From IMG/VR virus record IMGVR_UViG_3300001460_000291, positions 1-20,001 of that record: a DNA stretch of 20,001 bases; one strand, 5' to 3'. The notes beneath the pieces were generated by a model that worked only from the letters and a program-made list of their open reading frames with translations, was not told the DNA's origin and did no database searches. Numbering within the stretch: position 1 is the stretch's first letter; each line of letters opens with the position of its first letter. This DNA is from a virus. This document shows positions 1-16,942 of this stretch, piece after piece. The translations under genes and the position numbers were made by a program.

Positions 1-375
1 GTTTATAAAACTTATTTAGAAAATACTGATAATATAACTGTAGGGAATATTATACATTTGTTTTTTACTTACAACAATAAAAAGTTTAAGATAGGAACTG
101 CTAAGGTAGAGGACAAAGACTTCTCTTATTACATACTAAACAAACTATCTAACTTAACTCAAACCTATGGAAAAGAGTTAGTTGCAGCTTATTGCGTTAG
201 AGAATTTATAAAAGTTTCGTATGCTAAAGCTAGAAAAGATTTGAAAAAAATAGAGTTCTTATTTATGAAGTGGGAAAAGATGTTAAAGATAAAACACCCT
301 ACTTGTACTTCTATTAGAGATTTCAAGCCTACAATGGAAATGTACTTAAATGATTATAGCCTAAATAAAAGATGA
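1..375 (+). CDS. Hypothetical phage protein, 5' end outside window
   Basis: The reading frame is open from the first base of the window, so this is the C-terminal part (124 codons visible) of a longer gene; the TTG at 58 is not needed as a start. The product is lysine- and tyrosine-rich, mostly charged, with no signal peptide, membrane segment or motif that I recognise. Its stop overlaps the next start as ATGA (372-375), so it is translationally coupled to the methyltransferase and belongs to the same operon. Function unknown; from position it could belong to the replication or DNA-modification genes upstream of packaging, but that is only context. Confidence 0.7.
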   Translation, partial: VYKTYLENTDNITVGNIIHLFFTYNNKKFKIGTAKVEDKDFSYYILNKLSNLTQTYGKELVAAYCVREFIKVSYAKARKDLKKIEFLFMKWEKMLKIKHPTCTSIRDFKPTMEMYLNDYSLNKR

Positions 376-1016
376 GAATATTAAATTTATATGCTTGTCT
401 TGGAGGCAATAGATATAAGTGGGGAGACGAGCACGAAATCACTGCAGTAGAGTTAGACCCTGAGTTAGGTAGAATGTACCAGGAACGATTCCCAAAAGAC
501 AAAGTAATAGTAGCAGACGCACACCAATATCTATTAGACCACTTTAGAGAGTTTGATTTTATATGGACTAGTCCTCCTTGTCCCTCACATAGTAGAGCAG
601 CCTTTGGTTCTAGGAAATCTATTAAAGCCTCACATAAACCTTTATACCCAGATATGAAACTCTACCAAGAAATAATATTTTTAAAGCACTACTTTGATGG
701 CAAGTATGTAGTAGAGAATGTTATACCCTATTACGACCCATTAATTCCAGCAAAAAAAAGAGGTAGACATTTATACTGGACTAACTTTAATTTGCCTTCA
801 GTTTTAAGTACAAGAAAAAGTATAAGTATGGAGGATGTAAACGAAGTAGGACAATGGTGTGTATTCCACGATTATAATTTTAGGAACTATAAAGGAAAAC
901 AAACTATACAAAAGATAGCCAGAAACCTTGTAGACTATGAAGCTGGTAAAACCATATTAGATACAGTTCTTGGAATTGAACAAAACCTAAATGCCGAACA
1001 AATTAAATTGTTTTAA
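372..1016 (+). CDS. Compact cytosine-C5 DNA methyltransferase
   Basis: Predicted to transfer a methyl group from S-adenosylmethionine to C5 of cytosine in phage DNA, probably protecting it from host restriction. Visible landmarks: an N-terminal SAM-binding strand and glycine loop (residues 3-12, NLYACLGG), an acidic residue ending the next strand (VELD, 26-29), the catalytic PPC (68-70) followed by PSHS, the ENV motif (115-117), and a GRHLYW segment (131-136) where motif VIII is expected. The C-terminal RNLVDYEAGKTIL fits the final conserved helix. At 214 residues it is much shorter than typical family members (300 or more), with very little sequence left for a target-recognition domain. The start overlaps the upstream stop (ATGA). 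The family call is fairly safe; the target site and activity cannot be read from sequence. Confidence 0.85.
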   Translation: MRILNLYACLGGNRYKWGDEHEITAVELDPELGRMYQERFPKDKVIVADAHQYLLDHFREFDFIWTSPPCPSHSRAAFGSRKSIKASHKPLYPDMKLYQEIIFLKHYFDGKYVVENVIPYYDPLIPAKKRGRHLYWTNFNLPSVLSTRKSISMEDVNEVGQWCVFHDYNFRNYKGKQTIQKIARNLVDYEAGKTILDTVLGIEQNLNAEQIKLF

Positions 1017-1018
1017 TT

Positions 1019-1441
1019 ATGAATGAATACGACAAAATAGCAAACTTAGTAATAAGTTTAACTGAAATAGATATATTCGAGAATCGAAGGACACAAAGCC
1101 ACGTAGACGCTAGAGCCTTCTTTGACTTTATAATGAGAAAACTAAAGAACAAAACCTATACAGGAATAGCAAAATACTACCACACGAAAGGAAAGTCTGC
1201 AGATCATTCGACAATACTATACAGAACAAATATGTTTGACGAAATAAAATGTAGAAAGCCTGAATATAAAACCTGGTTAAATATTATTAAAAATGAGATT
1301 ATATCCTCCAAGGAATTATTAATAGTTTTTGATAAAATTAAAGTCTTAAAAACTCCAGATTCTTTAGAACAAGTAAATGAACTTATAGACAAATTAGCTT
1401 ACAAAGAAAAGTTATACAATACCCTAATAGATAAAAATTAA
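1019..1441 (+). CDS. DnaA domain IV-like DNA-binding protein
   Basis: The N-terminal half resembles the DNA-binding domain (domain IV) of the bacterial replication initiator DnaA: an RRTQSHVDAR segment (residues 23-32) matches the basic loop and helix start, and ADHSTILYR (61-69) matches the DnaA signature normally written GGRDHTTVLHA. The AAA+ ATPase part of DnaA is absent, so it cannot be an initiator by itself; it could recruit or block host DnaA, or act as a regulator that reads DnaA-box-like sites. The C-terminal half (about 75-140) is helical and charged, with no recognised domain. The start lies two bases after the methyltransferase stop. The fold call is good; the role is inference. 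Confidence 0.75.
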   Translation: MNEYDKIANLVISLTEIDIFENRRTQSHVDARAFFDFIMRKLKNKTYTGIAKYYHTKGKSADHSTILYRTNMFDEIKCRKPEYKTWLNIIKNEIISSKELLIVFDKIKVLKTPDSLEQVNELIDKLAYKEKLYNTLIDKN

Positions 1442-1445
1442 AAAT

Positions 1446-1463
1446 TTACGTTATATTAGTAGG
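1446..1463 (+). promoter_or_regulatory. Putative phage promoter, copy 1 (ACGTTATATTAGTA)
   Basis: ACGTTATA at 1448-1455 begins a 14-base block that recurs before the genes at 5048, 11991, 13137 and 17030. TACGTT fits the first part of the Bacteroidetes -7 box (TAnnTTTG). No TTTG-type -33 box is evident upstream. It separates the DnaA-like gene from the terminase genes. Confidence 0.5.
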
Positions 1464-1466
1464 GTG

Positions 1467-1835
1467 ATGTTACAAATGTTACACTATAAAAAAGATATAA
1501 TGTTAGAAAAAACTGAAGACAATAAAAGTAAAATGCTTAAAGCCTTAGAGGAGTATTATGGTATAGTAACAACCTCTTGTCAAAGTGTAGGTATAAGTAG
1601 AATAACTCATTATAGATGGCTTGAGGAGGACGAAGAGTATAAGGCTAAAGTCTTAGATATAAAAAATGCTGCTATAGATTTTGTAGAGTCTAAACTATTT
1701 GATTGTATAAATTCTGAAAAAGAAACTTCTATAATATTTTATTTAAAAACTATAGGCAAGAATCGAGGCTATATACCTAGACAAGAAATAGATACTGGAG
1801 AGAATAAAGAATTTAGAATTGAAGTAATTGAGTGA
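1467..1835 (+). CDS. Terminase small subunit
   Basis: Predicted DNA-recognition subunit of the packaging motor. The N-terminal half contains a helix-turn-helix-like stretch (GIVTTSCQSVGISRITHYRWL), typical of small terminases, and the rest is helical and acidic, consistent with oligomerisation and contact with the large subunit. It lies directly before the large terminase and overlaps it as GTGA. The start is ambiguous: GTG at 1464, ATG at 1467, and in-frame ATGs at 1476 and 1500 are all possible; I chose 1467 because it is the first ATG after the promoter-like motif. About 122 residues, somewhat short but within the usual range for phages of this type. The call rests on position plus the helix-turn-helix. 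Confidence 0.8.
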   Translation: MLQMLHYKKDIMLEKTEDNKSKMLKALEEYYGIVTTSCQSVGISRITHYRWLEEDEEYKAKVLDIKNAAIDFVESKLFDCINSEKETSIIFYLKTIGKNRGYIPRQEIDTGENKEFRIEVIE

Positions 1836-2992
1836 GAGACTTAAAAACAAACATAGTTTGGAAACACTTAGAAAAAAGCCAAAAGAAAATAATAATAGAA
1901 CAAGGAGGTTCTAGGTCTGGGAAGACTTATAATATATTGATCTGGATTATATTTGGATACAGCCTAAGAAATAAAAACAAAATAATATCTATTTGTAGAA
2001 AAACCTTTCCAGCTTTAAGGACTTCAGCTATGAGAGATTTTTTCGAAATCCTTAAAACACACGAGCTGTATAAAGAGGAAGACCACAACAAGACAAGTAG
2101 CGAATATAAAATCAATGGAAACCTAATAGAGTTTATTTCCCTGGACTCACCACAAAAAGTAAGAGGACGTAAAAGAGATATACTTTTTTTGAATGAAGCA
2201 AACGAGTGCACCTGGGAAGACTGGAACCAGTTAATATTCAGAACAATAGGTCGAGTCATATTAGACTACAACCCTTCAGACGATTTTCACTGGATATATG
2301 ACAAAGTCAAAGTTAGAGAAGACGCAGACTTTTTTAGAACTACTTATAAAAACAATAAGTTCCTAGAGGAATCGATAGTAAAAGAAATAGAAAGACTACA
2401 ATTTACAGACGAAAACTATTGGAGGATATATGGACTTGGTGAAGTAGGACAAAGTAAAGCAACTATATTTCAATTTAGAGAAATAGATACTATACCAGAA
2501 AATGCTAAGTTCGTTTCACTCGGAATGGATTTTGGTTATACAAACGACCCCACTTGCATCTCAAAAATTTACTTACACGATACCAACCTTTATTGCGAGG
2601 AGCTATTATATAGAACTGGAATGACTAATAGAGATATACATAATGAATTACTAAACTTAGAAATAGGTAGGCGTGATGAGATTTTTGCAGATTCAGCAGA
2701 ACCAAAAACAATAGACGAGCTGTATAGATATGGATGGAATATAAAACCAAGCACAAAAGGTAGAGACTCTATTAATATAGGAATTGATATGTTAAAGAGA
2801 TATACTATTCACGTAAAGAAAAATAGTCAAAACGCTATAAAGGAATTTAGAAACTATAAATGGAAAGAGGACAAGAATGGAAATATACTAAACGTCCCAG
2901 AAGACAAATGGAATCATTTTATAGATAGTCTCAGGTATGGAATTTATAACAAACTAGCTAAACCTAATTATGGAAAGTACGCAATCAGGTAA
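1832..2992 (+). CDS. Terminase large subunit
   Basis: ATP-driven DNA-packaging motor and headful or site-specific nuclease. The ATPase domain shows a Walker A GGSRSGKT (residues 25-32), a Walker B ILFLNE (117-122, catalytic Glu122) and a coupling segment LDYNPSDD (144-151). The nuclease domain shows the expected acidic triad in order: Asp233 in GMDFGY, Asp287 in FADSAEP and Asp365 in HFIDSLRYGI. At 386 residues it is complete but compact. The start is a GTG overlapping the small-subunit stop (1832-1835), so translation is coupled. Its 3' end overlaps the next small gene by 23 bases. One of the safest calls in the window. Confidence 0.96.
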   Translation: MRDLKTNIVWKHLEKSQKKIIIEQGGSRSGKTYNILIWIIFGYSLRNKNKIISICRKTFPALRTSAMRDFFEILKTHELYKEEDHNKTSSEYKINGNLIEFISLDSPQKVRGRKRDILFLNEANECTWEDWNQLIFRTIGRVILDYNPSDDFHWIYDKVKVREDADFFRTTYKNNKFLEESIVKEIERLQFTDENYWRIYGLGEVGQSKATIFQFREIDTIPENAKFVSLGMDFGYTNDPTCISKIYLHDTNLYCEELLYRTGMTNRDIHNELLNLEIGRRDEIFADSAEPKTIDELYRYGWNIKPSTKGRDSINIGIDMLKRYTIHVKKNSQNAIKEFRNYKWKEDKNGNILNVPEDKWNHFIDSLRYGIYNKLAKPNYGKYAIR

Positions 2993-3095
2993 GACTTGTA
3001 GGTTTTGTAAAATACCTATGACACCTACTGGTTCACTACAAAATGGTTTTTATTTCTACTGTCCTAAATGCGGAAAAGTAGAGTTTTGGAAATAA
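2970..3095 (+). CDS. Tiny zinc-ribbon protein (41 aa)
   Basis: A 41-residue frame starting inside the 3' end of the large terminase gene in another frame and ending one base before the PP-loop enzyme. It contains two CxxC knuckles: Cys10/Cys13 (TCRFC) and Cys31/Cys34 (YCPKCGK), separated by 17 residues, the layout of a small zinc ribbon. The tight fit between neighbours and the cysteine pattern make it a real gene despite its size. It could bind nucleic acid or a protein partner; no specific role can be assigned. Confidence 0.75.
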   Translation: MESTQSGKTCRFCKIPMTPTGSLQNGFYFYCPKCGKVEFWK

Positions 3096-3096
3096 T

Positions 3097-3945
3097 ATGA
3101 AAACAGTTAATTCTTTAAGTGGTGGAAAAACATCAAGCTATATTGCAGCCAATTATAAAGCTGACTACAATGTTTTTTCTTTAGTCAGAACTAGTGACAA
3201 AAAATGTTTGTTTCTAGATGCCAAAATAAGACAACAAATTTCAGATAGATTAGGAACTGAATTTATAGGGACACTTGAAGAAGATGAAATTATCTATACT
3301 ATGTTAGATTTAGAACAATACATAGGTCAAAAGATTGAATGGGTTACTGGTAAAACATTTGATGAAATTATTGTAAGAAAGGATAAAAAGTATTTACCTA
3401 ATGTTACTCAAAGATTTTGTACAACTGAAATGAAATTAAAACCAATATTTAATTGGTGGCAAAAAAAAATTAATAAACCTATAAAAATGAATATCGGTTA
3501 TAGGGCAAACGAAGGAAGTAGAGCAAAAACAATGTTAAGTAAAACTAATAAAAATGGATTGAGTACATTTAAAACTATTGTAGGTAAAAGAAAAACACAA
3601 AACAAATGGGCAGATATTGAGTGGCAAAAACCTATGTTCCCATTAATAAAAGACAATATATATAAAGATACTATTGAACAATACTGGAAGGACAAGCCAG
3701 TAAGATTTGCTTATATGAATAATTGTGTTGGATGTTTCCATAGAACTCCAGTTTTATTAAAACATCTATCAGATAAACACCCTAATAAATATCAATGGTT
3801 TATAGATGCTGAACAAGATACTGGTTATAATGTTAGAACTTTTAAAAATGGTATGAGCTATGAACAAATTAAAAACAGCTTTAAACAAACATCCTTATTT
3901 GATGATGATTTTAATGAGTGTGATTCTGGATATTGTGGTGTTTAA
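3097..3945 (+). CDS. PAPS reductase/PP-loop ATPase family protein
   Basis: Member of the phosphoadenosine-phosphosulfate reductase/adenine nucleotide alpha hydrolase superfamily, which binds ATP or an adenylyl-sulfate in a PP-loop. The loop is SLSGGKTSS (residues 6-14). Further family features are FCTTEMKLKP (Cys108), a GYRANEGSR substrate-binding segment (134-142), a CVGC pair (210-213) and a C-terminal CDSGYCGV (Cys275, Cys280); these cysteines could hold an iron-sulfur cluster or provide redox thiols. At 282 residues it is close to stand-alone family members. Such genes are common in tailed phages, but their role is uncertain: sulfur assimilation, DNA phosphorothioation-like chemistry and base modification are all possible. 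It appears to use GAT, GTT and ATT codons more than its neighbours, suggesting separate acquisition. Start follows a TAATATG junction. Confidence 0.85.
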   Translation: MKTVNSLSGGKTSSYIAANYKADYNVFSLVRTSDKKCLFLDAKIRQQISDRLGTEFIGTLEEDEIIYTMLDLEQYIGQKIEWVTGKTFDEIIVRKDKKYLPNVTQRFCTTEMKLKPIFNWWQKKINKPIKMNIGYRANEGSRAKTMLSKTNKNGLSTFKTIVGKRKTQNKWADIEWQKPMFPLIKDNIYKDTIEQYWKDKPVRFAYMNNCVGCFHRTPVLLKHLSDKHPNKYQWFIDAEQDTGYNVRTFKNGMSYEQIKNSFKQTSLFDDDFNECDSGYCGV

Positions 3946-4110
3946 TTTGGAAATGTGGAAAACTTTTAGTAACTTTATATTGTTGTTAAAGTCAAAGTCT
4001 CAACATATTCAGACTGGTAGAGTGAGCAAAGGTCAAAGCGAAACCTAACGAAGCAACCAAGGAGCTATCCTAGAATAGTAAAAAAGGTGTAAACAAGGAG
4101 CACCTACTCA
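3946..4110 (+). other. Gene-free segment, possible structured RNA or leader
   Basis: No convincing coding frame spans the gap between the PP-loop enzyme and the gene at 4148. By hand count 43 of the 100 bases from 4011 to 4110 are G or C, clearly more than the surrounding DNA. Short inverted repeats occur in series: ACTTTA/TAAAGT (3972-3992), AGTCT/AGACT (3996-4015), AGGA/TCCT (4060-4071) and AGGTGT/GCACCT (4085-4105, one wobble). None has a U-tract, so they are not simple terminators. It does not match any riboswitch, tRNA or intron core that I know. A 31-codon frame from 3953 exists but has no support. Confidence 0.25.
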
Positions 4111-4147
4111 ATGACAAATCAAAATCCTTTTAATTTAAACAAGAGAA

Positions 4148-4348
4148 ATGAAAACAAACAAACAATTTATTAAGAAACTTGCTAATATCTTAGGAGACAA
4201 ATTTTTCCTTTGTGATATGATTTGGCAAGAAGACTTACACGAAATGCAAGACAAACTAGCTAAACTAATTTGTGAAGCCTCAAACAATAATGTTAGTAGT
4301 GCAAGAACAATAGCAAAAGAATGTCCTAAAACTTTTACAATTTCATAA
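4148..4348 (+). CDS. Hypothetical small phage protein (66 aa)
   Basis: Short, mainly helical, soluble protein with mixed charge and three scattered cysteines (residues 22, 42 and 59); no motif that I recognise. It heads a cluster of five small genes ending at the terminator at 4986, all closely packed, which is typical of phage accessory genes. The start at ATG 4148 follows a purine-rich AAGAGAAATG. The stop is one base before the next ATG (TAATATG), implying coupled translation. Function unknown. Confidence 0.6.
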   Translation: MKTNKQFIKKLANILGDKFFLCDMIWQEDLHEMQDKLAKLICEASNNNVSSARTIAKECPKTFTIS

Positions 4349-4349
4349 T

Positions 4350-4487
4350 ATGAAAAAAACTAAATGCGATAATTGTAATAAGTATAGTCATCCACACTCG
4401 TTCCTATGTGAGTATTGTGGGTTTGACTTTGATTTCCAAATTACTTATAACAAATGGGGACTTCCCAATTTAACTCAAAAACAATAA
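4350..4487 (+). CDS. Tiny zinc-ribbon/zinc-finger protein (45 aa)
   Basis: Encodes 45 residues with two cysteine pairs, Cys6/Cys9 (KCDNC) and Cys20/Cys23 (LCEYCG), separated by a His-containing loop (SHPHS). This is a small zinc ribbon of the same general design as the 41-residue protein at 2970, though the sequences are not obviously copies. It starts one base after the upstream stop and ends two bases before the next gene, so the packing supports a real gene. Possible roles are nucleic-acid binding or interference with a host protein; nothing in the sequence decides. Confidence 0.7.
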   Translation: MKKTKCDNCNKYSHPHSFLCEYCGFDFDFQITYNKWGLPNLTQKQ

Positions 4488-4489
4488 TT

Positions 4490-4639
4490 ATGCCAATATC
4501 AAACGAAATATTCGAGACGTATAGGATTCAAGAGAGAGTCAAAGAGCAAAAGAAAGCTATAAGACTTTTAGCATCTCAAGGCTATACTATATTAGATTTA
4601 GAAAATAATATTATTAACAAAGAAAATTATAAACAATAA
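4490..4639 (+). CDS. Hypothetical small helical protein (49 aa)
   Basis: A 49-residue protein beginning MPISNEIFETYR. The frame is open back to an upstream ATG at 4454, but that would overlap the zinc-ribbon gene; ATG 4490 sits two bases after its stop, matching the spacing elsewhere here. The sequence is a charged helix (residues 8-28, rich in Arg, Lys, Glu and Gln) followed by an LLASQGYTILDLEN segment resembling the short helix-strand pieces of small regulatory proteins. No membrane segment or cysteine. Function unknown. Confidence 0.6.
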   Translation: MPISNEIFETYRIQERVKEQKKAIRLLASQGYTILDLENNIINKENYKQ

Positions 4640-4642
4640 AAT

Positions 4643-4801
4643 ATGACTAGAGAAAAATTAGATGACTTTTTAAGTACTTGGGCTGCACTAGTAATTCAAT
4701 TTACTACTATAGTTTTTGCCTTAACTTTTTGTTCAGTAGGAGTAATGTCTTGCGTAAAATTATTATATAGAATATTCAAAATGTTATTTTTAAATGAATA
4801 A
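4643..4801 (+). CDS. Small single-span membrane protein (52 aa)
   Basis: Encodes 52 residues with one strongly hydrophobic segment (about residues 13-38, WAALVIQFTTIVFALTF onward), a short acidic N-terminus and a basic C-terminus (KLLYRIFK). The charge pattern suggests an N-out/C-in orientation. It overlaps the next gene, another small membrane protein, by eight bases. A role in lysis (holin-like) or superinfection exclusion is conceivable for paired small membrane proteins in a phage, but no endolysin is in the window, so this remains a guess. Confidence 0.65.
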   Translation: MTREKLDDFLSTWAALVIQFTTIVFALTFCSVGVMSCVKLLYRIFKMLFLNE

Positions 4802-4958
4802 CGAGGAGTATATAAAAAGTCAAAGAGAAAGAGTAATGAGACAATATCGAAGTAACCAAGGTAGAAGTCCAAGAAAGGTAAACGAAATTATGAAACTATT
4901 AAAAGTAGTATTTATAGCTTTGTTTTTAATGACTATATTATGTTTTGTTTTCCTATAA
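4794..4958 (+). CDS. Small tail-anchored membrane protein (54 aa)
   Basis: The 54-residue product has a very basic, soluble N-terminal half (residues 7-34 contain many Arg and Lys) and a single hydrophobic helix at the extreme C-terminus (about 35-54, LLKVVFIALFLMTILCFVFL). This is the plan of a tail-anchored inner-membrane protein with its basic domain in the cytoplasm. It starts inside the preceding membrane-protein gene, so the two are probably co-translated, and it is the last gene before a strong terminator. No homologous family recognised. Confidence 0.65.
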   Translation: MNNEEYIKSQRERVMRQYRSNQGRSPRKVNEIMKLLKVVFIALFLMTILCFVFL

Positions 4959-4985
4959 TATAGTAATGGTTTTTTGTTTAAATTA

Positions 4986-5013
4986 GGGTAGTTTAACGAC
5001 TGCCCTTTTTTTT
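4986..5013 (+). terminator. Rho-independent terminator
   Basis: GGGTAGT (4986-4992) pairs with ACTGCCC (4999-5005), seven pairs with one G-T wobble, around the loop TTAACG, followed immediately by eight T residues (5006-5013). It ends the small accessory cluster and is followed within 20 bases by the promoter-like motif of the tail operon. Confidence 0.85.
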
Positions 5014-5030
5014 GTGAAAATTTTTAAAAT

Positions 5031-5047
5031 TAACGTTATATAAGTAT
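5031..5047 (+). promoter_or_regulatory. Putative phage promoter, copy 2 (ACGTTATATAAGTA)
   Basis: TAACGTTATATAAGTAT lies directly between the terminator and the ATG at 5048. The core TAACGTTA (5031-5038) is a perfect palindrome. A TTTG at 5011-5014, about 18 bases upstream, could act as a Bacteroidetes -33 box. If transcription starts at the usual distance, the leader is only a few bases or absent. Confidence 0.55.
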
Positions 5048-5686
5048 ATGGAATTAAAAGTCAACGTACCAAGTAGAATGGAGGAAATAACTTTAGAGCA
5101 ATACCAAAGGTTTCTAAAGGAGTGTGAAGACGAGAGTTTAAAAGAAGACGTGATAGCTTTAAAAATGCTAGAAATATTTTGTGGAGTTCCTCCAGCCAAA
5201 ACCTATACATACAAGATGAGTGATGTATATAAGATCTGTGACCAAATCAATAAAGCTCTAAACGAAAAGCCTCCACTAATTTGTAGGTGGAAATTTGATA
5301 AAATGGAATTTGGCTTTATTCCACAGCTTGACGATATGACTTTTGGAGAGTATGTAGACGTAGATAGTTATATAGTAGATTGGGAAAATATGCACAAAGC
5401 TATGGCTGTTTTATATAGACCAGTCGTACAATCTTTTAAAGGAAGTTATGAAATCGAAAACTATAAAGGCGATACTTATTGGGAAGTAATGTTAAAGATG
5501 CCACTTAGTTTAGTAATGGGTTCTATGCTTTTTTTTTGGACTTTAGAGAAGGAGTTAGTAGAAGTTATGAAGAGCTCTTTGAGTCAGGAGCAGAAGCAGA
5601 TCTATCAAGAGAAGCTAACTTCAATGTTAAATATGGATGGTATCACTCTATCTGGAGACTTGCAAAAGAAGACGTTACGAAATTAG
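5048..5686 (+). CDS. Tail assembly chaperone, gpG-like
   Basis: Predicted chaperone that coats the tape measure protein during tail-tube assembly, by analogy with lambda gpG. It is 212 residues, first gene of the tail operon, acidic and helical, with an N-terminal VPSRMEEITLEQYQRF segment that I recognise from tail proteins of Bacteroidetes phages. A run of nine T at 5529-5537 (codons CTT TTT TTT T) lies at residues 161-164; a -1 slip there joins the first 163 residues to the frame ending at 5784. The unshifted C-terminus (residues 164-212, ending near MDGITLSGDLQKK) also looks like real protein. Starts at the ATG directly after the promoter-like motif. Annotators may call it only hypothetical tail protein. 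Confidence 0.75.
   Translation: MELKVNVPSRMEEITLEQYQRFLKECEDESLKEDVIALKMLEIFCGVPPAKTYTYKMSDVYKICDQINKALNEKPPLICRWKFDKMEFGFIPQLDDMTFGEYVDVDSYIVDWENMHKAMAVLYRPVVQSFKGSYEIENYKGDTYWEVMLKMPLSLVMGSMLFFWTLEKELVEVMKSSLSQEQKQIYQEKLTSMLNMDGITLSGDLQKKTLRN
5529..5537 (+). other. Predicted -1 ribosomal frameshift site
   Basis: Nine consecutive T residues read as CTT TTT TTT TGG in the chaperone frame contain the ideal slippery heptamer T TTT TTT. Slipping back one base leads into the open frame 5536-5784, whose only early start codon is a weak TTG at 5536, inside the T-run context. No strong stimulatory stem is seen at the usual distance; a weak imperfect pairing of GACTT at 5539-5543 with GAGTC at 5581-5585 is possible. 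Confidence 0.7.
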
Positions 5687-5784
5687 ATGAGGTTACTAAT
5701 ATGAATTTTCATAAATGTCTAAGTGCTTTAATGTACATAAAAGAAAAAAACGTATTACAAACGCAAAAAATAAAAAAGAAATAA
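5536..5784 (+). CDS. Tail assembly chaperone C-terminal extension, gpT-like (made by -1 frameshift)
   Basis: Frame -1 relative to the chaperone gene, overlapping its last 151 bases. It encodes 82 residues with the segment YGWYHSIWRLAKEDVTK, then a conserved-looking DEVTNMNFHKCLSALMYIKEK, a pattern I recognise in overlapping tail genes of Bacteroidetes phages. There is no ATG near its beginning; the TTG at 5536 would be a poor independent start. I infer it is made as the tail of a gpG-gpT-like fusion of about 245 residues. In lambda the longer product recruits the tail tube protein to the tape measure. It ends four bases before the next gene. Alternative: independent initiation at an internal ATG such as 5701, giving only a fragment. 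Confidence 0.7.
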   Translation: MDFREGVSRSYEELFESGAEADLSREANFNVKYGWYHSIWRLAKEDVTKLDEVTNMNFHKCLSALMYIKEKNVLQTQKIKKK

Positions 5785-5788
5785 AACG

Positions 5789-6262
5789 ATGAGTAATAAA
5801 AGAGGTATAAGAAGTTATTATTTAATAATGTCTAAACTAGAAGAGGAGCTACTAAAAAGCCCTTTTGTAAAGACTGTAACATTTGGAGACATTACACAAA
5901 TTGATTTAAGAAAGCAAACTATATTTCCTTTGTCTCATATTATTATGAATAACGTTGTACAAAGCGGCCAAGTCTTAACTTATAATATGACTATACTATT
6001 AATGGATATTATAGATATTAACAAAGCTATAGTAGTAGACCAATATACTGGCAACACAGATGAGATGGATATTTTAAATACTCAGCTTGGAGTTGGAAAT
6101 AAACTTGTAGAACAAATGAGATCTGGAACTTTATTTAACGATATGTACCAGGTCAGCACAGATGTAACATTTGAACCTTTCTTTGATAGGTTTGAGAACG
6201 AGCTGGTAGGCTGGAGTATGAATGTAAACATAACAGTAGAAAACGATATTTATATATGTTAG
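5789..6262 (+). CDS. Tail terminator-like/tail completion protein
   Basis: 157-residue protein with an alternating strand-helix pattern: KSPFVKTVTFGDITQIDLRKQTIFPLSHI-type strand segment near residues 24-52, a long hydrophobic strand LTYNMTILLMDIID (63-76), and a C-terminal strand pair ending WSMNVNITVEND. This matches the general design of small proteins that cap the tail tube, and the spot beside the chaperone and neck genes fits. I recognise the protein type from Bacteroidetes phages but cannot prove the terminator role. Its last seven bases overlap the next start. Confidence 0.55.
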   Translation: MSNKRGIRSYYLIMSKLEEELLKSPFVKTVTFGDITQIDLRKQTIFPLSHIIMNNVVQSGQVLTYNMTILLMDIIDINKAIVVDQYTGNTDEMDILNTQLGVGNKLVEQMRSGTLFNDMYQVSTDVTFEPFFDRFENELVGWSMNVNITVENDIYIC

Positions 6263-6840
6263 AGTTTGACGAGATTGAAAAAGTACTTGAAGCATTTGCA
6301 ATTAATGTAATATCTGCAGCAAAAAATAATTTAGCTAAGTCTAATAATTCTAATGGCGAACTATACAATAGCTTAACAAGTAAGGTTTCACCAGGAAGTG
6401 ACGATATAATTTTAGATTTCTTGGCTACAGATTATGCTTCGTTTTATGATTTAGGTGTACAAGGTGCAGCTCCTTCTAAAATGCCTCCTAAGTCTTTAGC
6501 TAGATTTAATAAAGCACCTATGAGTCCTTACAAGTTTGGAACTGGGTCTGGAAAAAAAGGAGGGTTACGTGGAGCTATAGACAAATGGGTTATTACTAAA
6601 GGACTAGAAAACGTAAGAGATAAAAAAACAGGTAGATTTCTACCAAGAAAAAGTATGACTTTTTTAATATCCAGGAGTATTTATTTAACAGGATTAAAAC
6701 CTAGTAATTTTTTCTCAGCTCCATTTGAACAATACACTAGAGATTTAGAGTTAGACTTAGAAAAGGCACTAGGAAGAGACGTAGATATTGCTTTAGAAAA
6801 CTCCAGCTTTACAAACGAATTAACAATAACAATAACATAA
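6256..6840 (+). CDS. HK97 gp10-like neck/tail-joining protein
   Basis: 194 residues. The first helix (2-28) is followed by NLAKSNNSNGELYNSLTSKV, a short strand IILDFLATDYASFYDLGVQG and a Gly/Pro/Lys-rich loop (about 72-110); then WVITKGLENVRDKKTGRF and a helix FLISRSIYLTGLKPSNFF. The order of ASGxLxxSI-like segment, acidic Y-x-x-F-x-D-x-G-V strand and WIxxKGL helix is that of gp10/neck proteins of HK97-type siphoviruses, which join the finished head to the tail. The position next to the tail terminator candidate agrees. Overlaps both neighbours by a few bases. Confidence 0.6.
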   Translation: MLEFDEIEKVLEAFAINVISAAKNNLAKSNNSNGELYNSLTSKVSPGSDDIILDFLATDYASFYDLGVQGAAPSKMPPKSLARFNKAPMSPYKFGTGSGKKGGLRGAIDKWVITKGLENVRDKKTGRFLPRKSMTFLISRSIYLTGLKPSNFFSAPFEQYTRDLELDLEKALGRDVDIALENSSFTNELTITIT

Positions 6841-7838
6841 TGGCAGCAATAGCATTAAGAAGCCCTCAATACAAATCAGACGTAGCAGATACAGGTAGTC
6901 CTTTGTCAGCAAAAATAACTATAACAATAGACTCGACTTTAAGATATACTTTAGTAAAAGCAACTTCTATAAATGAGACTATGCTTTGGGAAATCTCAGA
7001 GTTATGTAGAGATTATATAAACATCACTTATAATGGTAGCTATACTGCAGAGACTTTAGCTATAGTATCGGTATTAACTTCTCACGCTTCTACGGATGGT
7101 AGTGGTACAGCTTTAACTACTAGTACAATTACAGACGTAGGTTACGATGCCTATGGAACTTTTATGGAGGGAGCAAATCCGACAGTTCCTTTTGGTTCAA
7201 GACCAACCTGGTTAATAAGTGGAAATCCAGATCACACAGGAATAAATGACGAATACTATATTTATGCACCAGTTGGAGCAGCTTCAGAAATTCCTTATAT
7301 AATTGCTAATGAGTCAATGGGTTATAATAGTTATGGTGCAAATGATACACAACTAAACGGAACTCCTGCCGGTATTAGAATGAATATTGTTAGAATTGAT
7401 TGTAGTAAATACGGAGATGGAAATAAAATAACATTTGTTAATAAGTTTGGAGCTTTACAAGATTTATGGTTCTTTTTAAAATCAGTTAACACTACAACTA
7501 AAAAACAAGAACAATTCCAAAGAAATATAATAGATGGGAATGGCTCTTATAATGTAAACACTCACACAAAACAAGACTTCAATACTTTAGCAAATACAAG
7601 TATAACTCTTAGTTCAGGTTTTTATCCAGAGTGGACTAATGCTTGGTTTGAGCAATTACTATTATCTGAACAAGTATGGTTAACAAGGCTTGACCCTACA
7701 AATCCTAACGCAACGCAATACGTTCCAGTAAATGTTACTAAAAACAATTTGATTAAAAAAACAATAGTAAATGATAAACTAATTGAATATACGTTTGATT
7801 TTTCAATGTCATTTGATTATATAAATAATGTTAGATAA
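6840..7838 (+). CDS. Virion structural protein, probable tail sheathless tube/tip component
   Basis: 332 residues, rich in Thr, Ser, Asn and aromatic residues, with many predicted strands and no membrane segment, as expected of a secreted-size virion protein. A conserved-looking core, CSKYGDGNKITFVNKFGALQDLWFFLKS (split around residues 190-217), and a later SSGFYPEWTNAWFEQLLLSEQVWL block recur in tail proteins of Bacteroidetes phages as I know them. It follows the neck protein with a TAATG overlap and precedes the large tail protein with another, so the three are made together. Distal tail protein is a reasonable guess; the exact place in the virion is not visible. Confidence 0.55.
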   Translation: MAAIALRSPQYKSDVADTGSPLSAKITITIDSTLRYTLVKATSINETMLWEISELCRDYINITYNGSYTAETLAIVSVLTSHASTDGSGTALTTSTITDVGYDAYGTFMEGANPTVPFGSRPTWLISGNPDHTGINDEYYIYAPVGAASEIPYIIANESMGYNSYGANDTQLNGTPAGIRMNIVRIDCSKYGDGNKITFVNKFGALQDLWFFLKSVNTTTKKQEQFQRNIIDGNGSYNVNTHTKQDFNTLANTSITLSSGFYPEWTNAWFEQLLLSEQVWLTRLDPTNPNATQYVPVNVTKNNLIKKTIVNDKLIEYTFDFSMSFDYINNVR

Positions 7839-10033
7839 TGCAAAAACTCCAGCTTTTTATAGATAATAACCCCTTGCCTGAAACTATTGCATATCAAAGA
7901 ATAGATTTATTTAAAGATGAGACTGTAACTATAAATCAAAGTATCCAAAACATAAAAGACCCAGCTAAGATATTTACTGAGTTTACCAAAAGTTTTACTA
8001 TACCAGCTTCTAAGTCAAATAATAAAATATTTGAACACTATTATAATTTTGATATTATTAATGGATTTGATGCTAGAGACAAAAGACCAGCAAAAATAGA
8101 ACTCAATAACATTCCTTTTAAAATAGGCTTTGTTAGATTAGAAGGTGTGGAGTTAAAAAGAAATGCTCCATACGCTTATAAGATTGTTTTCTATGGAAAT
8201 ACAGTTAGCTTAAAAGATACTTTAGGTGAGGCTAAATTACAGAACCTAACTTCACTAGTACAATATAATCTAAACTACGATTCAGCTACAGTTAAAGCTA
8301 GATTACAAACTGCAAACGGCCCAATACTTTGTCCTTTAATAACGTCTGGAGCTTCTAATAAAGACTCTGATTTAGTGCCTCCTCCCTCACGTTTATATTA
8401 CGACACAGTAACGAATACTCAAGCAAATGGAAATTTATATTATCCTGGGAACGATGACAATGGAGTTTTATATTCAGACTTAAAATATTCAATAAGAGTA
8501 AAAGAAGTAATAGACGCAATTACAGCTCAATACTCTAATTTAGTATTTAGTGACGATTTCTTTAATACTAGTAACGCTGAGTTTTACAACTTACATTTGT
8601 GGTTACATAGAAAAAAAGGAGGAGTACCAGACGAGTCTCTAGTACAAACTTTTCCAAGCCCAGTTACAGGATTCGGCCCTCCAACTATTCAAGCTACCAA
8701 TATGTTTAATGGTACAGGTTTAGTTATACAAAATAATTGGTTAGACACAAATGGAGTTTTAGTTTCAGGTATACCAAACACTACTCAAAAACTTTTATTA
8801 ACAACTACAAGCACAGATCTTTTTACAGTTGTAATTTATAGAAATGGATTGACTCACGCTACTATAGCAAATCTACAAGGAGGAGGGGGAACTCTTGTTG
8901 TAGGTGCAAGTAGTTTAGGTGGGACGTTTAGTGCAGCAACCTACACTATAACTATTTTTTCAGCAACTCAAATTAATTTCACTGAAATAAAGTGGGACTT
9001 AGCTGGCTACGACCCAAATGTTCAAGTAGGATGGGTAGAAACTTATACAGTAGCTTTTAATGCAACTGCAGCTTTTACGTTTGATATACCTAGTCAAATT
9101 CCAGATATGAAAATTATAGACTTTTTAACTTCTATATTTCGTATGTTTAATTTAACAGCTTTTTTAGATGACAATACGTTATTAGCTAATGGGTCTGTAA
9201 ATCCAGATTTTAATAAAATTAAAGTACAAACCTTAGATGACTTTTATTCTACAAATGTATCTACCTATGATATATCAAAATATATAGATATTGAAAATAG
9301 CCAAGTTAATATTGCTTTGCCATATAGAGCTATTAATTTTAAATATGCAGAAACTGACACTATCTTAGCCCAGCAATATAGCCAACTTAATGGACGTAAA
9401 TGGGGGTCTGAGCAATACGATGGAAACGATACTATTGGTGATAATTTTGACGGCCCAAATTCTACTTATACAGTTGACGTTCCATTTGAACATTTAATGT
9501 ATGAAAGACTAACTAATACTGGGTCAGGAGTTGCAGCAAATACGCAAACGTCTATACAATATGGATATTTTGTAGACCAAAACCAAGAACCAATTTTAGG
9601 TAAACCTTTATTGTTTTATCCTATACACCAAGCAGCAGGTTCAGGAACTACAGTTATTTCTTTTAAGTCTGCTCCTAGTGGTTCAAACATAAACTCCCCT
9701 TTAGATAATTATTTTATTCCTAGTAATAGTTTAGCTATTTCAGCTTCTACTAGCACAAAGAATTTAAACTTTAGAGATGAGTTTAATGAGTATACAGGGT
9801 CTTCAGATTTCCCAGGTACTTTGTTTAAAGAAAACTACGACACATATATAACTAATATTTTTAATGGTAAAAGAAGATTAATAAAGATAAAAGCCTATTT
9901 GCCTTTAAGTATAATAAACGATTTAAAGTTAAACGATACGTTAACTATTAATAACCAAAACTATAAAATTAATACTATCTCTACCAATTTAATTACTGGT
10001 GAAAGTGATATAGAAATATTAAACGAGCTATGA
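7838..10033 (+). CDS. Large tail protein, baseplate/tail-tip hub candidate
   Basis: 731 residues, the largest protein here. The N-terminal 140 residues contain IDLFKDETVTINQSIQ, then KIFTEFTKSFTIPASKSNNKIF and VELKRNAPYAYKIVFYG, a pattern I associate with tail-tip proteins of Bacteroidetes phages. A central Ser/Thr/Gly-rich part (about 260-400) looks like inserted beta domains that may face the outside; the C-terminal part returns to strand-rich sequence ending in LKLNDTLTINNQNYKIN and TNLITGESDIEIL, like the final barrel of tail hub proteins. No lysozyme or peptidase motif was seen. Position between the distal tail candidate and the tape measure supports a tail-tip role. Confidence 0.6.
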   Translation: MQKLQLFIDNNPLPETIAYQRIDLFKDETVTINQSIQNIKDPAKIFTEFTKSFTIPASKSNNKIFEHYYNFDIINGFDARDKRPAKIELNNIPFKIGFVRLEGVELKRNAPYAYKIVFYGNTVSLKDTLGEAKLQNLTSLVQYNLNYDSATVKARLQTANGPILCPLITSGASNKDSDLVPPPSRLYYDTVTNTQANGNLYYPGNDDNGVLYSDLKYSIRVKEVIDAITAQYSNLVFSDDFFNTSNAEFYNLHLWLHRKKGGVPDESLVQTFPSPVTGFGPPTIQATNMFNGTGLVIQNNWLDTNGVLVSGIPNTTQKLLLTTTSTDLFTVVIYRNGLTHATIANLQGGGGTLVVGASSLGGTFSAATYTITIFSATQINFTEIKWDLAGYDPNVQVGWVETYTVAFNATAAFTFDIPSQIPDMKIIDFLTSIFRMFNLTAFLDDNTLLANGSVNPDFNKIKVQTLDDFYSTNVSTYDISKYIDIENSQVNIALPYRAINFKYAETDTILAQQYSQLNGRKWGSEQYDGNDTIGDNFDGPNSTYTVDVPFEHLMYERLTNTGSGVAANTQTSIQYGYFVDQNQEPILGKPLLFYPIHQAAGSGTTVISFKSAPSGSNINSPLDNYFIPSNSLAISASTSTKNLNFRDEFNEYTGSSDFPGTLFKENYDTYITNIFNGKRRLIKIKAYLPLSIINDLKLNDTLTINNQNYKINTISTNLITGESDIEILNEL

Positions 10034-10185
10034 TAAAAAATATATTAGAAATGTTAAAACACGCAGACGGTGAAACTGATAATATCAAATTTGCTCAAGG
10101 TGCTAAAAAACTTTCAAAAAACTTTAAAGAGGGAAAAGATAAACTTAAAAAACAAATAAGATGGGAAGGTCAATCCAAACAATAG
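10030..10185 (+). CDS. Small charged protein before the tape measure (51 aa)
   Basis: A 51-residue frame that starts in an ATGA overlap with the large tail gene and runs 25 bases into the tape measure gene. It is lysine-rich and helical (AQGAKKLSKNFKEGKDKLKK, residues 22-41), with no hydrophobic segment. It fills an otherwise empty 127-base gap, and coupling at both ends supports its reality. It may be a small tail-assembly factor or simply a coupling frame for tape measure translation; no family recognised. Confidence 0.55.
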   Translation: MIKNILEMLKHADGETDNIKFAQGAKKLSKNFKEGKDKLKKQIRWEGQSKQ

Positions 10186-11957
10186 CAGTCGAAGGAGGCA
10201 AAGAAGCTGAAAAGGAAATCAAAGGCGTACAAAATGCTTTAGACAAATTCGGTAAAACAGCACAAAAAAATAGAGACGCTACTAGACTTTTAGACAAGGC
10301 TACTGGCGGTGCAGTTACTAAATTCAATGATCTGCAAAAAGGATTATTACAAGGAACTAAAGGATTAAAAGGTTTAGCACTAGGTTTTAAAGGTCTTAGT
10401 AAAGCTATTATAGCTACAGGTATTGGAGCAATCGTTGTAGCGTTAGGAGCTATCTATGCGTATTGGGACGATATTACAGAGGCTATTAATGGAGTATCTG
10501 CCGAGACTAAAACTTTATTAGGATTACAAGAAGAGCAAGTCGCAGCAACCCAAGAAGCATACGATACTATTGCGGCTACTGAAAATATTTTAAGACAACA
10601 AGGACAAACTGAACAAGATATATTAAACTTAAAAAAGTTAGCTACAGACGAAGCTATCGCAGCTCTTGAGGCTCAATTAATAACACAAAAAGAAATTAAA
10701 AAAGCTCAAGTAGAAACTGCCGAGAGAAACTCTAAAATACTATCAGGTATTATATTAATGCTTACAGCTCCACTCGCTGCAGTATTAGTAGCAGTAGATG
10801 AGGTAGCTAAGGTATTAGGCAAAGAAGCTAACCTGGCTAAAAACTTTTACGAGGGTATTGGAACTTTTGTATTCGACCCTGAAGGTATTGCTGAAGAGGG
10901 TGAGGAAGCCATAAACGAAACTGAAAATCAATTAACTAAATTAAAAAATAGAAAAGCAGGTTTTGAATTACAAGAACAAAAAAACAAAAAGGCTGCAAGT
11001 GACAAGGCTAAAGCAAACCAAGAGAAAGCAGATAAAAAAGCTATAGATGACGAAAAGAAAAAACAAGAAGCTTTAGAAAAAATTAGACAAGGAGGAATAG
11101 ATACTGAGGAAGAGAGAAGAGCTGAAGAGAGAAAAAAAATAAACGATGAGTATACGCAATTACTTTTAGACCAAGAAAAATTTGGAGGAGACAGGGAAGC
11201 ATTACTAGAAGCTCAAGAAACCAAACTAAGAGAATTAAGAGAAAAGTTTGCTTTAGAAGACAAAGCTAAAGCTGACGCTGACAAGTTATTAGAACAAGAA
11301 AAAATAATTGAACAACTAGAGTTAGACGCTGAATTTGAAGAATTAACTTTTGACGAGCAAAGACAATTATTAAACGAAAGACAACAGCAATTATTACAAG
11401 ACGAAACTTTAAGTGAAGAGCAAAGAACTAAATTAAGTGCAGCCTTTGGAAAAGCTAGAGTTAAAATAGTAGAGCTAGAACAAAAACAAAAAGAAGAGGC
11501 TACAATGTCTTACGCAAATTCGTTAAGTAAAATTTCAGGATTACTTGGTGCTGAGACTCAAGCTGGCAAACTTACTGCTAGTGCTGCGGCATTAATTGCA
11601 ACTTACTTAAATGCTAATAAGGCTAGAGAAAGTCAATTAGCAATAGCAACTCCAGACGCTCCATTTAGAGCTGCGTTAGCTATGGCTGCAGAAATAGCAT
11701 CTGGATTAGCAAATGTAAAAGCTATTAATTCAGTTAAAGTTCCTAAGGCTTCAGGAGGAGGCTCACCTAGTGCACCTAGAACTCCAGCGACTGTATCTGC
11801 TCCTTCATTTAATATAGTTGGAGGAAGTGATACAAGCCAATTAGCCGAGACTATAGCTAGTCAAACTCAAGAACCTGTAAGAGCTTTTGTAGTAAGCAAC
11901 GATGTAACTACAGCTCAAAGTTTAGAGAGAAATATAGTAGAGGGAGCTACAATATAA
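10161..11957 (+). CDS. Tape measure protein
   Basis: Fixes tail length and passes through the tail tube during assembly. The 598 residues show the typical build: an N-terminal helical region, a Gly/Ala-rich hydrophobic segment KAIIATGIGAIVVALGAIYAYW (near 81-102), a second hydrophobic stretch (about 192-214), a long charged coiled coil rich in Glu, Lys and Gln (about 250-450), an Ala-rich helix region (about 465-525) and a Gly/Ser/Pro linker before a C-terminal segment SFNIVGGSDTSQLAETI and VRAFVVSNDVTTAQSLERN that I recognise from Bacteroidetes phage tape measures. At about 0.15 nm per residue the tail would be close to 90 nm. It lies last in the tail module, after the tip genes rather than before them. 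Confidence 0.85.
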   Translation: MGRSIQTIAVEGGKEAEKEIKGVQNALDKFGKTAQKNRDATRLLDKATGGAVTKFNDLQKGLLQGTKGLKGLALGFKGLSKAIIATGIGAIVVALGAIYAYWDDITEAINGVSAETKTLLGLQEEQVAATQEAYDTIAATENILRQQGQTEQDILNLKKLATDEAIAALEAQLITQKEIKKAQVETAERNSKILSGIILMLTAPLAAVLVAVDEVAKVLGKEANLAKNFYEGIGTFVFDPEGIAEEGEEAINETENQLTKLKNRKAGFELQEQKNKKAASDKAKANQEKADKKAIDDEKKKQEALEKIRQGGIDTEEERRAEERKKINDEYTQLLLDQEKFGGDREALLEAQETKLRELREKFALEDKAKADADKLLEQEKIIEQLELDAEFEELTFDEQRQLLNERQQQLLQDETLSEEQRTKLSAAFGKARVKIVELEQKQKEEATMSYANSLSKISGLLGAETQAGKLTASAAALIATYLNANKARESQLAIATPDAPFRAALAMAAEIASGLANVKAINSVKVPKASGGGSPSAPRTPATVSAPSFNIVGGSDTSQLAETIASQTQEPVRAFVVSNDVTTAQSLERNIVEGATI

Positions 11958-11975
11958 AAACAAAATTATTAATTA

Positions 11976-11990
11976 AAACGTTATATAAGT
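11976..11990 (+). promoter_or_regulatory. Putative phage promoter, copy 3 (ACGTTATATAAGTA)
   Basis: ACGTTATATAAGT begins at 11978 and is followed immediately by the ATG of the protease gene at 11991, so the last A of the motif is the first base of the start codon. It lies at the boundary of the tail and head modules. A transcript starting at the expected distance would be leaderless. No -33 TTTG is seen. Confidence 0.55.
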
Positions 11991-12932
11991 ATGAAAATAG
12001 TAGAACTGATTATAGACGAAGAGGATGAGTTAGCAGGTATTGACGCTATAAGCATAGTAGAAAGCCCAGCAATAGAAGAGAATTTCGTAGCTCTTAATAA
12101 ACAAAAAGAATACAAACTAAAAACCTTAGACGAGGATAAAAGAATTTTAATGGGTGCACTTTTAGTGCCTAATAAAACTATATATCGTAAAGAAGGAAAA
12201 GAGGAGTATTATATATACTTTTCAAAAGAGACTGTAAAAAAAGCTAGTGAGTTATTCTTGCAAAAAGGTAAACAGAACAACGCTACACTAGAACACAAAT
12301 TTGATATAGAAGGTTTAACCTTAGTAGAGTCTTGGATAGTAGAAGACAAAGACAAAGACAAGTCAGCTCTATACAATATGGACGTACCAGTAGGAACTTG
12401 GATGGGTGCTGTAAAAGTAAACAACGAGGATATATGGAAAGACTTTGTTAAGACTGGTGACGTAAAAGGTTTTAGTATTGAGGGTTTTTTCCTTGACCGA
12501 GAAGAGAGACCAAAAGAAAAAATAAAAGACAAGCTAAATGAAGTAGAGCTAGAAACTTATAATGACTACCCAGAGTCTGCAGTTAACAATGCTAAGAAAG
12601 CAATTAAATATAAAGAAGAGAATGGTTCAAGCTGTGGAACTCCAGTAGGCTGGACTAGAGCTAGTCAATTAGCTAACAAAGAAAATATAAGTCGTGAAAC
12701 TATAGCTCGTATGGCATCTTATAAAAGGCACGAAGGAAATAGCGAGGGCTCTTACGAGGATGGATGCGGCCCTATAATGTACGATGCTTGGGGAGGAAAA
12801 TCTGGAGTAAATTGGGCTATAAATAAATTAGAACAAATTGACAAAGAAAAATTATCTCAAATACAAGCAGGGGTCAAGTTGCTTAAAATAAAAAAAATGT
12901 TAATAAATGCCAGTAAGAAAACGAACAAATAA
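11991..12932 (+). CDS. XkdF-like prohead maturation protease with C-terminal mini-domain
   Basis: Predicted serine protease that processes scaffold and other head proteins before DNA packaging. The N-terminal part (residues 1-35, including DELAGIDAISIVESPAIEENF) and the core (50-175) follow the XkdF-type protease pattern: LMGALLVPNKTIYR, then LEHKF with candidate catalytic His102, and VKGFSIEGFF with candidate Ser162. From about 185 onward there is a separate module: a YPESAVNNAKKAIKYK helix, TPVGWTRASQLANKENIS, then ARMASYKRHEG and a Gly/Trp-rich DAWGGKSGVNWA, common in phage head proteins. 313 residues, start directly after the promoter-like motif. First gene of the head module. Confidence 0.8.
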   Translation: MKIVELIIDEEDELAGIDAISIVESPAIEENFVALNKQKEYKLKTLDEDKRILMGALLVPNKTIYRKEGKEEYYIYFSKETVKKASELFLQKGKQNNATLEHKFDIEGLTLVESWIVEDKDKDKSALYNMDVPVGTWMGAVKVNNEDIWKDFVKTGDVKGFSIEGFFLDREERPKEKIKDKLNEVELETYNDYPESAVNNAKKAIKYKEENGSSCGTPVGWTRASQLANKENISRETIARMASYKRHEGNSEGSYEDGCGPIMYDAWGGKSGVNWAINKLEQIDKEKLSQIQAGVKLLKIKKMLINASKKTNK

Positions 12933-12933
12933 A

Positions 12934-13101
12934 ATGAATAGGCGTAGTCAAACTATGCCTTATAATGAGCGTTGGAACCCAGCTAGTCCTTCTAGTAGTT
13001 CTAGGGCTTGTTATTGTAAAGACGAAAACACTTACTCCAGGGAGTGCTGCGATGGGTCTTTGTGGGCTCAAGGTATTGGAGTTATTACTCGTGTAACCTG
13101 A
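12934..13101 (+). CDS. Small Cys-rich phage protein (55 aa)
   Basis: 55 residues with a basic N-terminus (MNRRSQTMPYNERW) and a cysteine cluster ACYCKDENTYSRECCDGSL followed by WAQGIGVI. I recognise the CxCxxxxTYSxxCCDGxxxxQGIG pattern as a recurring small protein near the capsid genes of Bacteroidetes phages; its function is not known to me. Start choice: ATG 12934 lies one base after the protease stop, while ATG 12907 would give 64 residues and overlap the protease by 26 bases. Four cysteines could bind a metal or form disulfides. Confidence 0.65.
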   Translation: MNRRSQTMPYNERWNPASPSSSSRACYCKDENTYSRECCDGSLWAQGIGVITRVT

Positions 13102-13121
13102 AAATGCAAAATAATTTTATA

Positions 13122-13136
13122 CTACGTTAAATAGGT
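13122..13136 (+). promoter_or_regulatory. Putative phage promoter, copy 4 (variant ACGTTAAATAGGTA)
   Basis: TACGTTAAATAGGT at 13123-13136 is followed directly by the ATG at 13137, with the same spacing as the copy at 11978. It differs from the consensus at two positions. It lies in the only noncoding gap of this head region (13102-13136), which also contains no terminator that I can see. Confidence 0.45.
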
Positions 13137-13334
13137 ATGAATGAGCTAAACAGGATTACAGAAAAGTTGTTCAAAGACAATTTAAACTTCCCACTTATTT
13201 TAAGACAAATCGAGAAAGAGGTAAACCTTGAGGAATACCCTTGGGACGAGTGTATAGCAGATCAAACTAAAAGATATGGAGCTGAGGCTGCTCCTAAAAT
13301 TTGTGGATATATAAAAGAAAAATATGGCAATTAA
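13137..13334 (+). CDS. Small head-module protein with CIADQ/ICGYIK mini-domain
   Basis: 65 residues. The C-terminal half, PWDECIADQTKRYGAEAAPKICGYIKEKYG (given here in two pieces: PWDECIADQTKRYG and PKICGYIKEKYG), is a two-cysteine helical hairpin (Cys40 and Cys56) that in other phages I know occurs at the ends of protease or portal-type proteins. Here it is a stand-alone gene. The N-terminal half is a charged helix. It overlaps the next gene by 11 bases. It may bind to, or be cleaved with, other head proteins; that is inference from the context. Confidence 0.65.
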   Translation: MNELNRITEKLFKDNLNFPLILRQIEKEVNLEEYPWDECIADQTKRYGAEAAPKICGYIKEKYGN

Positions 13335-13785
13335 ATTAAACCAAGTAGTTTTAAACAAACTAAAAAACGCTAAAAAAGATAGTCTAAAAAAAGTAGACTT
13401 GTCTTTAGTAAGTGATATAGATAATGAATTTGACTGGCTTGAACAATCTTATAGTGAGGCTAGTTATGGAGCAGAGTTTATGAGAGAGTGGGAAGATAAA
13501 ATTTTAGATTTTGGAACGGAGCTTAGTATAGCAGTCGATAATTATGTAGTAAATGGAGCAGGTTATAGTTTTGAGGAAGCATATACAGATATGAGAGTTA
13601 AAATAGAGGAATTAGAATCAAAGTCAGAAGAGTTAGGAATTAATCCTAGCGAACTAGTATCAAACTACGAAGAAATTAAAGACATTTTAAGTAATGCAGA
13701 ATCAGTAGACTCTGAGTTTAAAAATGCTTATAAAGAAGTATTAAGACAAGCTAATGAACGCTTTGGACTAGCAGATTTTTCATAA
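13324..13785 (+). CDS. Acidic helical head-module protein, paralogue A
   Basis: 153 residues, strongly acidic and almost wholly helical, with a predicted coiled coil in the second half. It shares with the next gene the overall length, the order of helices and the segment SEELGINPSELV (about residues 101-112 here), so the two probably arose by tandem duplication. No catalytic or membrane motif. Placed between the maturation protease and the scaffold-like gene, it could be an auxiliary scaffold or a core protein that is removed by the protease; this is inferred from position and composition only. Confidence 0.65.
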   Translation: MAIKLNQVVLNKLKNAKKDSLKKVDLSLVSDIDNEFDWLEQSYSEASYGAEFMREWEDKILDFGTELSIAVDNYVVNGAGYSFEEAYTDMRVKIEELESKSEELGINPSELVSNYEEIKDILSNAESVDSEFKNAYKEVLRQANERFGLADFS

Positions 13786-13786
13786 T

Positions 13787-14257: not shown

Positions 14258-14284
14258 TAAACATTAATAATTAAATAATAAATA

Positions 14285-14899: not shown

Positions 14900-14910
14900 T
14901 AATAAAAACA

Positions 14911-16310: not shown

Positions 16311-16332
16311 TAATTAAATTAACCAAAATTTA

Positions 16333-16367: not shown

Positions 16368-16383
16368 ATAAAAATATATATCA

Positions 16384-16914: not shown

Positions 16915-16942
16915 TAAAGTTTTTTTCTGTGTTTAGTTTTGA

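Follow-up and report, generated by a model that had tools for sequence, protein, structure and literature searches.

The window analyzed here is a 20,001-nucleotide stretch of viral DNA (IMG/VR record IMGVR_UViG_3300001460_000291, positions 1 to 20,001). On its plus strand, an open reading frame of 212 amino acids (5048..5686) extends from an ATG at 5048 to a stop codon at 5684-5686. This frame, referred to as frame 0, matches phrog_32199, a family of unknown function (E 3e-13), and is proposed to encode a gpG-like product composed of an N-terminal domain and a frame-0 C-terminus. A run of nine T residues, preceded by C and followed by GG, occupies 5529-5537 (+) and is read in frame 0 as CTT (5528), TTT (5531), TTT (5534), and TGG (5537). 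Because the nine T residues occupy these positions, a T_TTT_TTT heptamer falls in frame 0 at 5530-5536 (+), where two tRNA-Phe would slip in tandem in the case of a ribosomal shift. In the -1 frame, an open reading frame of 82 codons (5536..5784, +) runs from a TTG at 5536 to a stop codon at 5782-5784. It contains YGWYHSIWRLAKEDVTK, includes a conserved (K/Y)(W/Y)GWYxSIY block, and would supply the helical C-terminal domain of a gpT-like fusion. The initial annotation had described nine T residues in the correct phase for a T TTT TTT slip and an 82-residue -1 frame with a conserved block and no ATG of its own; both descriptions are confirmed, though the TTG at 5536 is a possible start codon. 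Joined at the slip, 163 residues from frame 0 and 82 from the -1 frame give a predicted fusion of 245 amino acids with the junction ...MLFF|LDFREGVSR, and the 150 nucleotides at 5537-5686 (+) would be read in two frames. The third (+1) frame is closed by a TAG at 5544-5546 (+), just after the T-run, and closes at the same short distance 3′ of the run in 309 of the 327 relatives described below. This closure may limit the products of a one-base deletion or may just follow from the encoding of Leu-Gly/Glu over Phe-Arg/Lys.

The first relatives were collected by a protein search of IMG/VR, which returned 52 loci with 36-100% identity. All of these loci that span the junction have T_TTT_TTT at the equivalent position; on contigs that extend far enough, they also have a -1 open reading frame of about 79-91 codons with the WGWYxSIY block or a close variant. 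The set was widened by searches with separate profiles of the N-terminal and -1 domains, a bacterial-genome scan, two DNA patterns (scanned with a spacing of 88-118 nt to the WGWY block), and a divergent-profile search. The -1 relation is found in all junctions that have both domains (216 of 216 in the first set and 179 of 179 unique junctions in the second set) and is also found in 75 of 75 junctions of the more distant set recovered by the divergent-profile search. After removal of near-duplicates, the final set comprises 327 non-redundant junctions from public contigs, 322 of which group into 125 clusters at 70% N-terminal identity. Across these 327 junctions, the T-run has a length of 9 in 257, 10 in 69, and 12 in 1, and is never shorter than 9. 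The searches were unbiased for the T-run because they were protein-based or used a pattern needing just five T residues, with the exception of one pattern that needed seven. In other genes of these phages, runs of nine or more T residues occur twice in 402,000 codons versus ~21 expected, and their occurrence at the junction of all 327 relatives is far beyond chance. The loss of the T-run in a relative that keeps both frames had been named at the outset as an observation that would refute a slip; such relatives were looked for and none was found among the 327 non-redundant junctions. A -1 relation and a slippery site that are conserved in relatives, as is characteristic of lambda-type G/GT chaperones, are therefore both found here. 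The related contigs are AT-rich, and their other genes strongly avoid both A-runs and T-runs of nine or more (T10+, 0 versus 4.8 expected; A10+, 0 versus 44 expected).

Conservation at the slip extends to the choice of codon. Both core Phe codons are TTT in 273 of 273 non-redundant junctions, and upstream in the same genes TTC makes up 515 of 1993 Phe codons (26%). A change from TTT to TTC in the second codon is silent in both frames (Phe in frame 0 and Leu in the -1 frame before Tyr or Trp), and selection therefore acts on the nucleotides. A scan for TTTTTC at the slip never recovered an interrupted run of seven or eight T residues; the matches all had ten T residues, as in CTT TTT TTT TTC. 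The residue after the slip is Y, W, F, L, C, or S. A homopolymer sequencing error was considered for the T-run and rejected because the sequence is consistent across hundreds of contigs and in a cultured isolate, and because each of the two frames shows protein-like evolution.

We propose, with a probability of roughly 0.85, that one gene gives rise to two protein forms by a slip at the T-run, with dual-coded ends and most likely a role like that of lambda gpG/gpGT. As judged from comparison of the sequences, the locus combines a conserved -1 relation, an invariant T-run, and dual coding, and lacks a conserved independent start; the occurrence of the slip, its rate and mechanism, and the chaperone function are inferred. 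Most products would result from reading frame 0 to 5686, which yields the 212-amino-acid protein. In a minority, a slip back by one at the T-run would direct translation along the -1 frame to 5784 and yield the 245-amino-acid fusion with a second helical domain. The single phage gene would in this manner encode two proteins that have residues 1-163 in common.

For the slip itself, a ribosomal route that involves tandem tRNA-Phe slippage on U_UUU_UUU is slightly favored over slippage of RNA polymerase. The well-studied tail-chaperone shifts are described as ribosomal, and an in-phase heptamer of the X_XXY_YYZ type (T_TTT_TTT) is always present, though any T9 run contains one. A stem-loop, pseudoknot, or Shine-Dalgarno-like stimulator is common, not universal, in -1 programmed ribosomal frameshifts. 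At the window sequence, no RNA hairpin was found (window z-scores of -0.34 to 1.49), in agreement with the earlier remark that a clear downstream stem is lacking. Likewise, no conserved stem was found upstream or downstream of the T-run (mean z of ~0 in eight windows over 126 sequences), and no conserved Shine-Dalgarno-like element was found upstream (SD-like sequences in 13 of 273 junctions). An efficient ribosomal shift is therefore not obviously explained by a conserved stimulating RNA structure or SD-like element.

The alternative, which is plausible if somewhat less probable, is transcriptional slippage: at the T9-T12 run, the host RNA polymerase would insert a single extra U (or 1 + 3n of them), and the longer mRNA, read normally by a ribosome that does not slip, would give the same fusion protein. 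Three features make polymerase slippage a serious rival: the nine-T floor, the frame-independent avoidance of long runs, and the missing stimulator. No run in the 327 relatives is shorter than nine, yet the heptamer needs just seven. Elsewhere in these phages, the longer a T-run is, the rarer it becomes relative to expectation, whatever the frame (observed/expected of 0.56 for T7, 0.24 for T8, and 0.12 for T9); of the three heptamer registers, the in-phase T_TTT_TTT is depleted least (0.49 versus 0.23 and 0.37). This route is also in line with the missing downstream stem and upstream Shine-Dalgarno-like element and with the codon after the slip, which nearly always starts with T; in the four cases where this codon is CTG, the run still contains nine T residues. 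A conserved, unbroken stretch of at least about nine A/T nucleotides, as present here, is itself a feature of programmed transcriptional slippage, a process that would also yield mRNAs of mixed run length. Slippage has been described at a run length of nine (PMC5009743), and in bacterial genomes selection against it is commonly seen at runs of nine A/T nucleotides (PMC1088944). In contrast, the flanking T residues may follow from the encoded amino acids (V/L/I/F before the core, mostly Y/W after it, and Leu in the -1 frame), and polymerase slippage would also be expected to generate deletion products. In addition, the avoidance of long runs may reflect indel mutation; a similar frame-independent avoidance in E. 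coli has been attributed to transcriptional slippage or indel mutation (PMC4066793). Of the -1 programmed frameshift predicted in the initial annotation, the conserved switch to the -1 frame at the T-run stands, whereas its ribosomal nature is less secure, since an extra T introduced by the polymerase gives an identical protein and several features fit this explanation as well or better. Ribosomal and polymerase slippage may both contribute.

The proposed two-form gene is located in the tail module between the genes for the large terminase (1832..2992, +) and the tape measure protein (10161..11957, +; phrog_24676, E 6e-20), with four genes separating it from the latter. A family search of the window identified no major tail protein gene. 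This protein may be encoded at 16384-16914, after a likely capsid gene at 15357-16310, a placement by which the tail module would be split. The window regions 6256-10033 and 16384-16914 hold structural genes of unknown PHROG families. Among family members, 8 of 26 show weak profile matches to the tail protein family phrog_166. The model of the frame-0 protein has good confidence and strong fold matches to proteins from P12024S and uncultured phages, and the few named fold matches include two tail assembly (chaperone) proteins, with weak E values of 0.1-0.2. No Pfam match to a curated tail-chaperone family was obtained, and the PDB fold search gave no usable match to a solved structure. Sequence or fold similarity is a weak criterion here because chaperones of this class diverge strongly. 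By analogy to lambda, the role is probably best described as that of a tail assembly chaperone with a short and a long form produced at a set ratio. For this assignment, as first made, a location in the tail module, ahead of the tape measure gene, is observed; a curated family or structural match does not accompany it, and the gene is not positioned between known major tail protein and tape measure genes. The lack of an adjacent known major tail protein gene and the empty family and structure searches would also agree with another tail or neck assembly factor, but this identity is unlikely given the position within the tail module before the tape measure gene, the phrog_166 matches, the two named fold matches, and the short-plus-long design, which is a hallmark of the tail assembly chaperone class.

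Like lambda gpG/gpGT, the predicted arrangement consists of one gene and two proteins with a common N-terminus, a -1 shift near the 3′ part, a second domain in the longer form only, and a location upstream of the tape measure gene. It differs from the lambda arrangement, in which the slip site is GGGAAAG, by an all-T run of nine or more and by a conserved frame-0 tail of ~50 residues that overlaps the new frame; moreover, there is no sequence match, and the gene is not directly before the tape measure gene. A wider G-T class of tail assembly chaperones was reportedly described by Xu, Hendrix and Duda. In lambda-type chaperones, the long form is produced at a low and fixed ratio, is required for tail assembly, and does not occur in virions. 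The lambda gpG/gpGT products are made at a ratio of 30:1 (PMC5009743), and a frameshift cluster of HK97-type phage tail assembly chaperones was tested at 7% (PMC3711429). The latter cluster likewise combines a chaperone with recoding, but no similarity to it is detectable by Pfam or PHROGs. The transcriptional slippage sites of T. thermophilus dnaX and of IS elements (A9/T9) share with this locus nine identical A/T nucleotides, two products, and a nine-nucleotide threshold (PMC1088944), whereas at this locus the new frame leads into a long conserved domain of a putative phage assembly gene.

The unshifted C-terminus also shows the properties of a selected protein. When the -1 protein is recoded synonymously according to local codon usage, frame 0 closes after an average of 13 codons, whereas the natural sequences keep it open for 56 codons past the slip (n=186, median p 0.005); in the window sequence alone, it is open for 49 codons versus 25 expected (p 0.02). 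In 60 disjoint pairs, -1 wobble positions differ at 0.179 in the overlap versus 0.332 after it, and frame-0 wobble positions upstream differ at 0.421. A second comparison used 93 disjoint pairs that share the frame-0 stop and considered codons that encode an identical degenerate amino acid in both members. Here, synonymous change amounts to 0.382 in frame 0 upstream, whereas the -1 frame shows 0.162 within the overlap and 0.251 beyond it. Change is lower in the overlap than downstream in 62 of these pairs and higher in 30 (p 0.001). At the boundary, -1 synonymous change is 0.11 over the six codons that precede the frame-0 stop and steps up to 0.33 immediately beyond it. The depressed synonymous variation that had been suggested as a check over 5537-5686 is thus observed in the relatives, with a sharp rise at the frame-0 stop, and together with the extended open frame it backs the earlier proposal that the unshifted C-terminus is real and that ~150 bp are coding in two frames. 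Both C-termini are under protein-level selection, and the 150 nt therefore code twice. The end of the frame-0 tail varies from 38 to 78 codons past the slip (5-95% of the 327 relatives) and its last residues are modelled with very low confidence; because of these two features, the constraint on the overlap is real but not uniform. Variable ends, low model confidence, and a tail of just ~24 residues in phage P12024L would also suit a passive frame-0 tail that is open by accident, with just the shared domain and the -1 fusion being of importance. This explanation is improbable and already disfavored, as the open stretch of frame 0 is four times the length predicted from synonymous recoding and the depressed wobble change in the overlap steps up at the frame-0 stop.

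A separate -1 gene with its own start, translated by coupling, is highly improbable: apart from the TTG at 5536, which has a counterpart in 30 of 273 relatives, most relatives lack a start there (ATG or GTG in 14 of 273 junctions, counted over the open -1 frame as far as five codons past the slip), the conserved LxF(R/K) of the -1 domain begins directly at the slip, and the T-run would be left without a role, so that two separate genes are not tenable. Several single viral proteins of 226-267 amino acids match both the frame-0 and the -1 models, a size range that includes the predicted 245 residues; these matches suggest natural in-frame fusions.

The hosts of this family are Bacteroidota, represented by Nonlabens phages and, in the bacterial-genome scan, by Winogradskyella or Bacteroidetes bins. 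One relative lies in a bin labelled Epsilonproteobacteria and is likely a mis-binned phage contig. The cultured Nonlabens phages P12024L and P12024S are family members. Among cultured phages, a tblastn search with the N-terminal domain matched only P12024S and P12024L, and the same search with the -1 domain gave no match. In P12024L (NC_018272, 6001-6695), a T9 run is located at the end of gp40, which stops ~24 codons past the run, and the -1 frame continues through gp41, which is annotated from an internal ATG of the -1 domain. The two are listed as separate hypothetical genes, but from their sequence they look like one recoded gene. The gp40-gp41 pair of P12024L and P12024S is homologous to the gene described here and has the same T9 site and -1 domain, as read in P12024L; it differs in its short frame-0 tail and in its annotation as two hypothetical proteins. 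A weak fold relative, gp10 of Flavobacterium phage 6H (NC_021867, 10927-10352, minus strand), is found upstream of the tape measure gene. It was rejected as a site of the same type, having no T9 run and no clean slip into a following open frame. Past its stop is a frame of ~100 codons (HPIIFLYG...YKKLEKK) without an annotated gene, which may be its second domain, entered through a different site.

The frameshifting of tail chaperones is a classic case of programmed recoding, with known examples mostly from outside the Bacteroidota. The present results describe a very large and mostly uncultured phage family that would rely on a pure T-run and keep ~150 nt of two-frame coding, at a site that went unnoticed in the annotation of a cultured member. 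They suggest a simple annotation rule, in which the two open reading frames are joined at the T-run. P12024L would provide a culturable system for deciding between ribosome and polymerase, and with it a clean test of whether phages can exchange ribosomal slippage for that of the polymerase while keeping the gene design, as bacteria do in dnaX. We tentatively raise the possibility that a large group of Bacteroidota phages makes its two tail-chaperone forms by RNA polymerase slippage on T9-T12 rather than by the ribosomal frameshift of lambda. If true, the same two-protein logic would be achieved by a different molecular step, together with a deeply conserved double-coded C-terminus.
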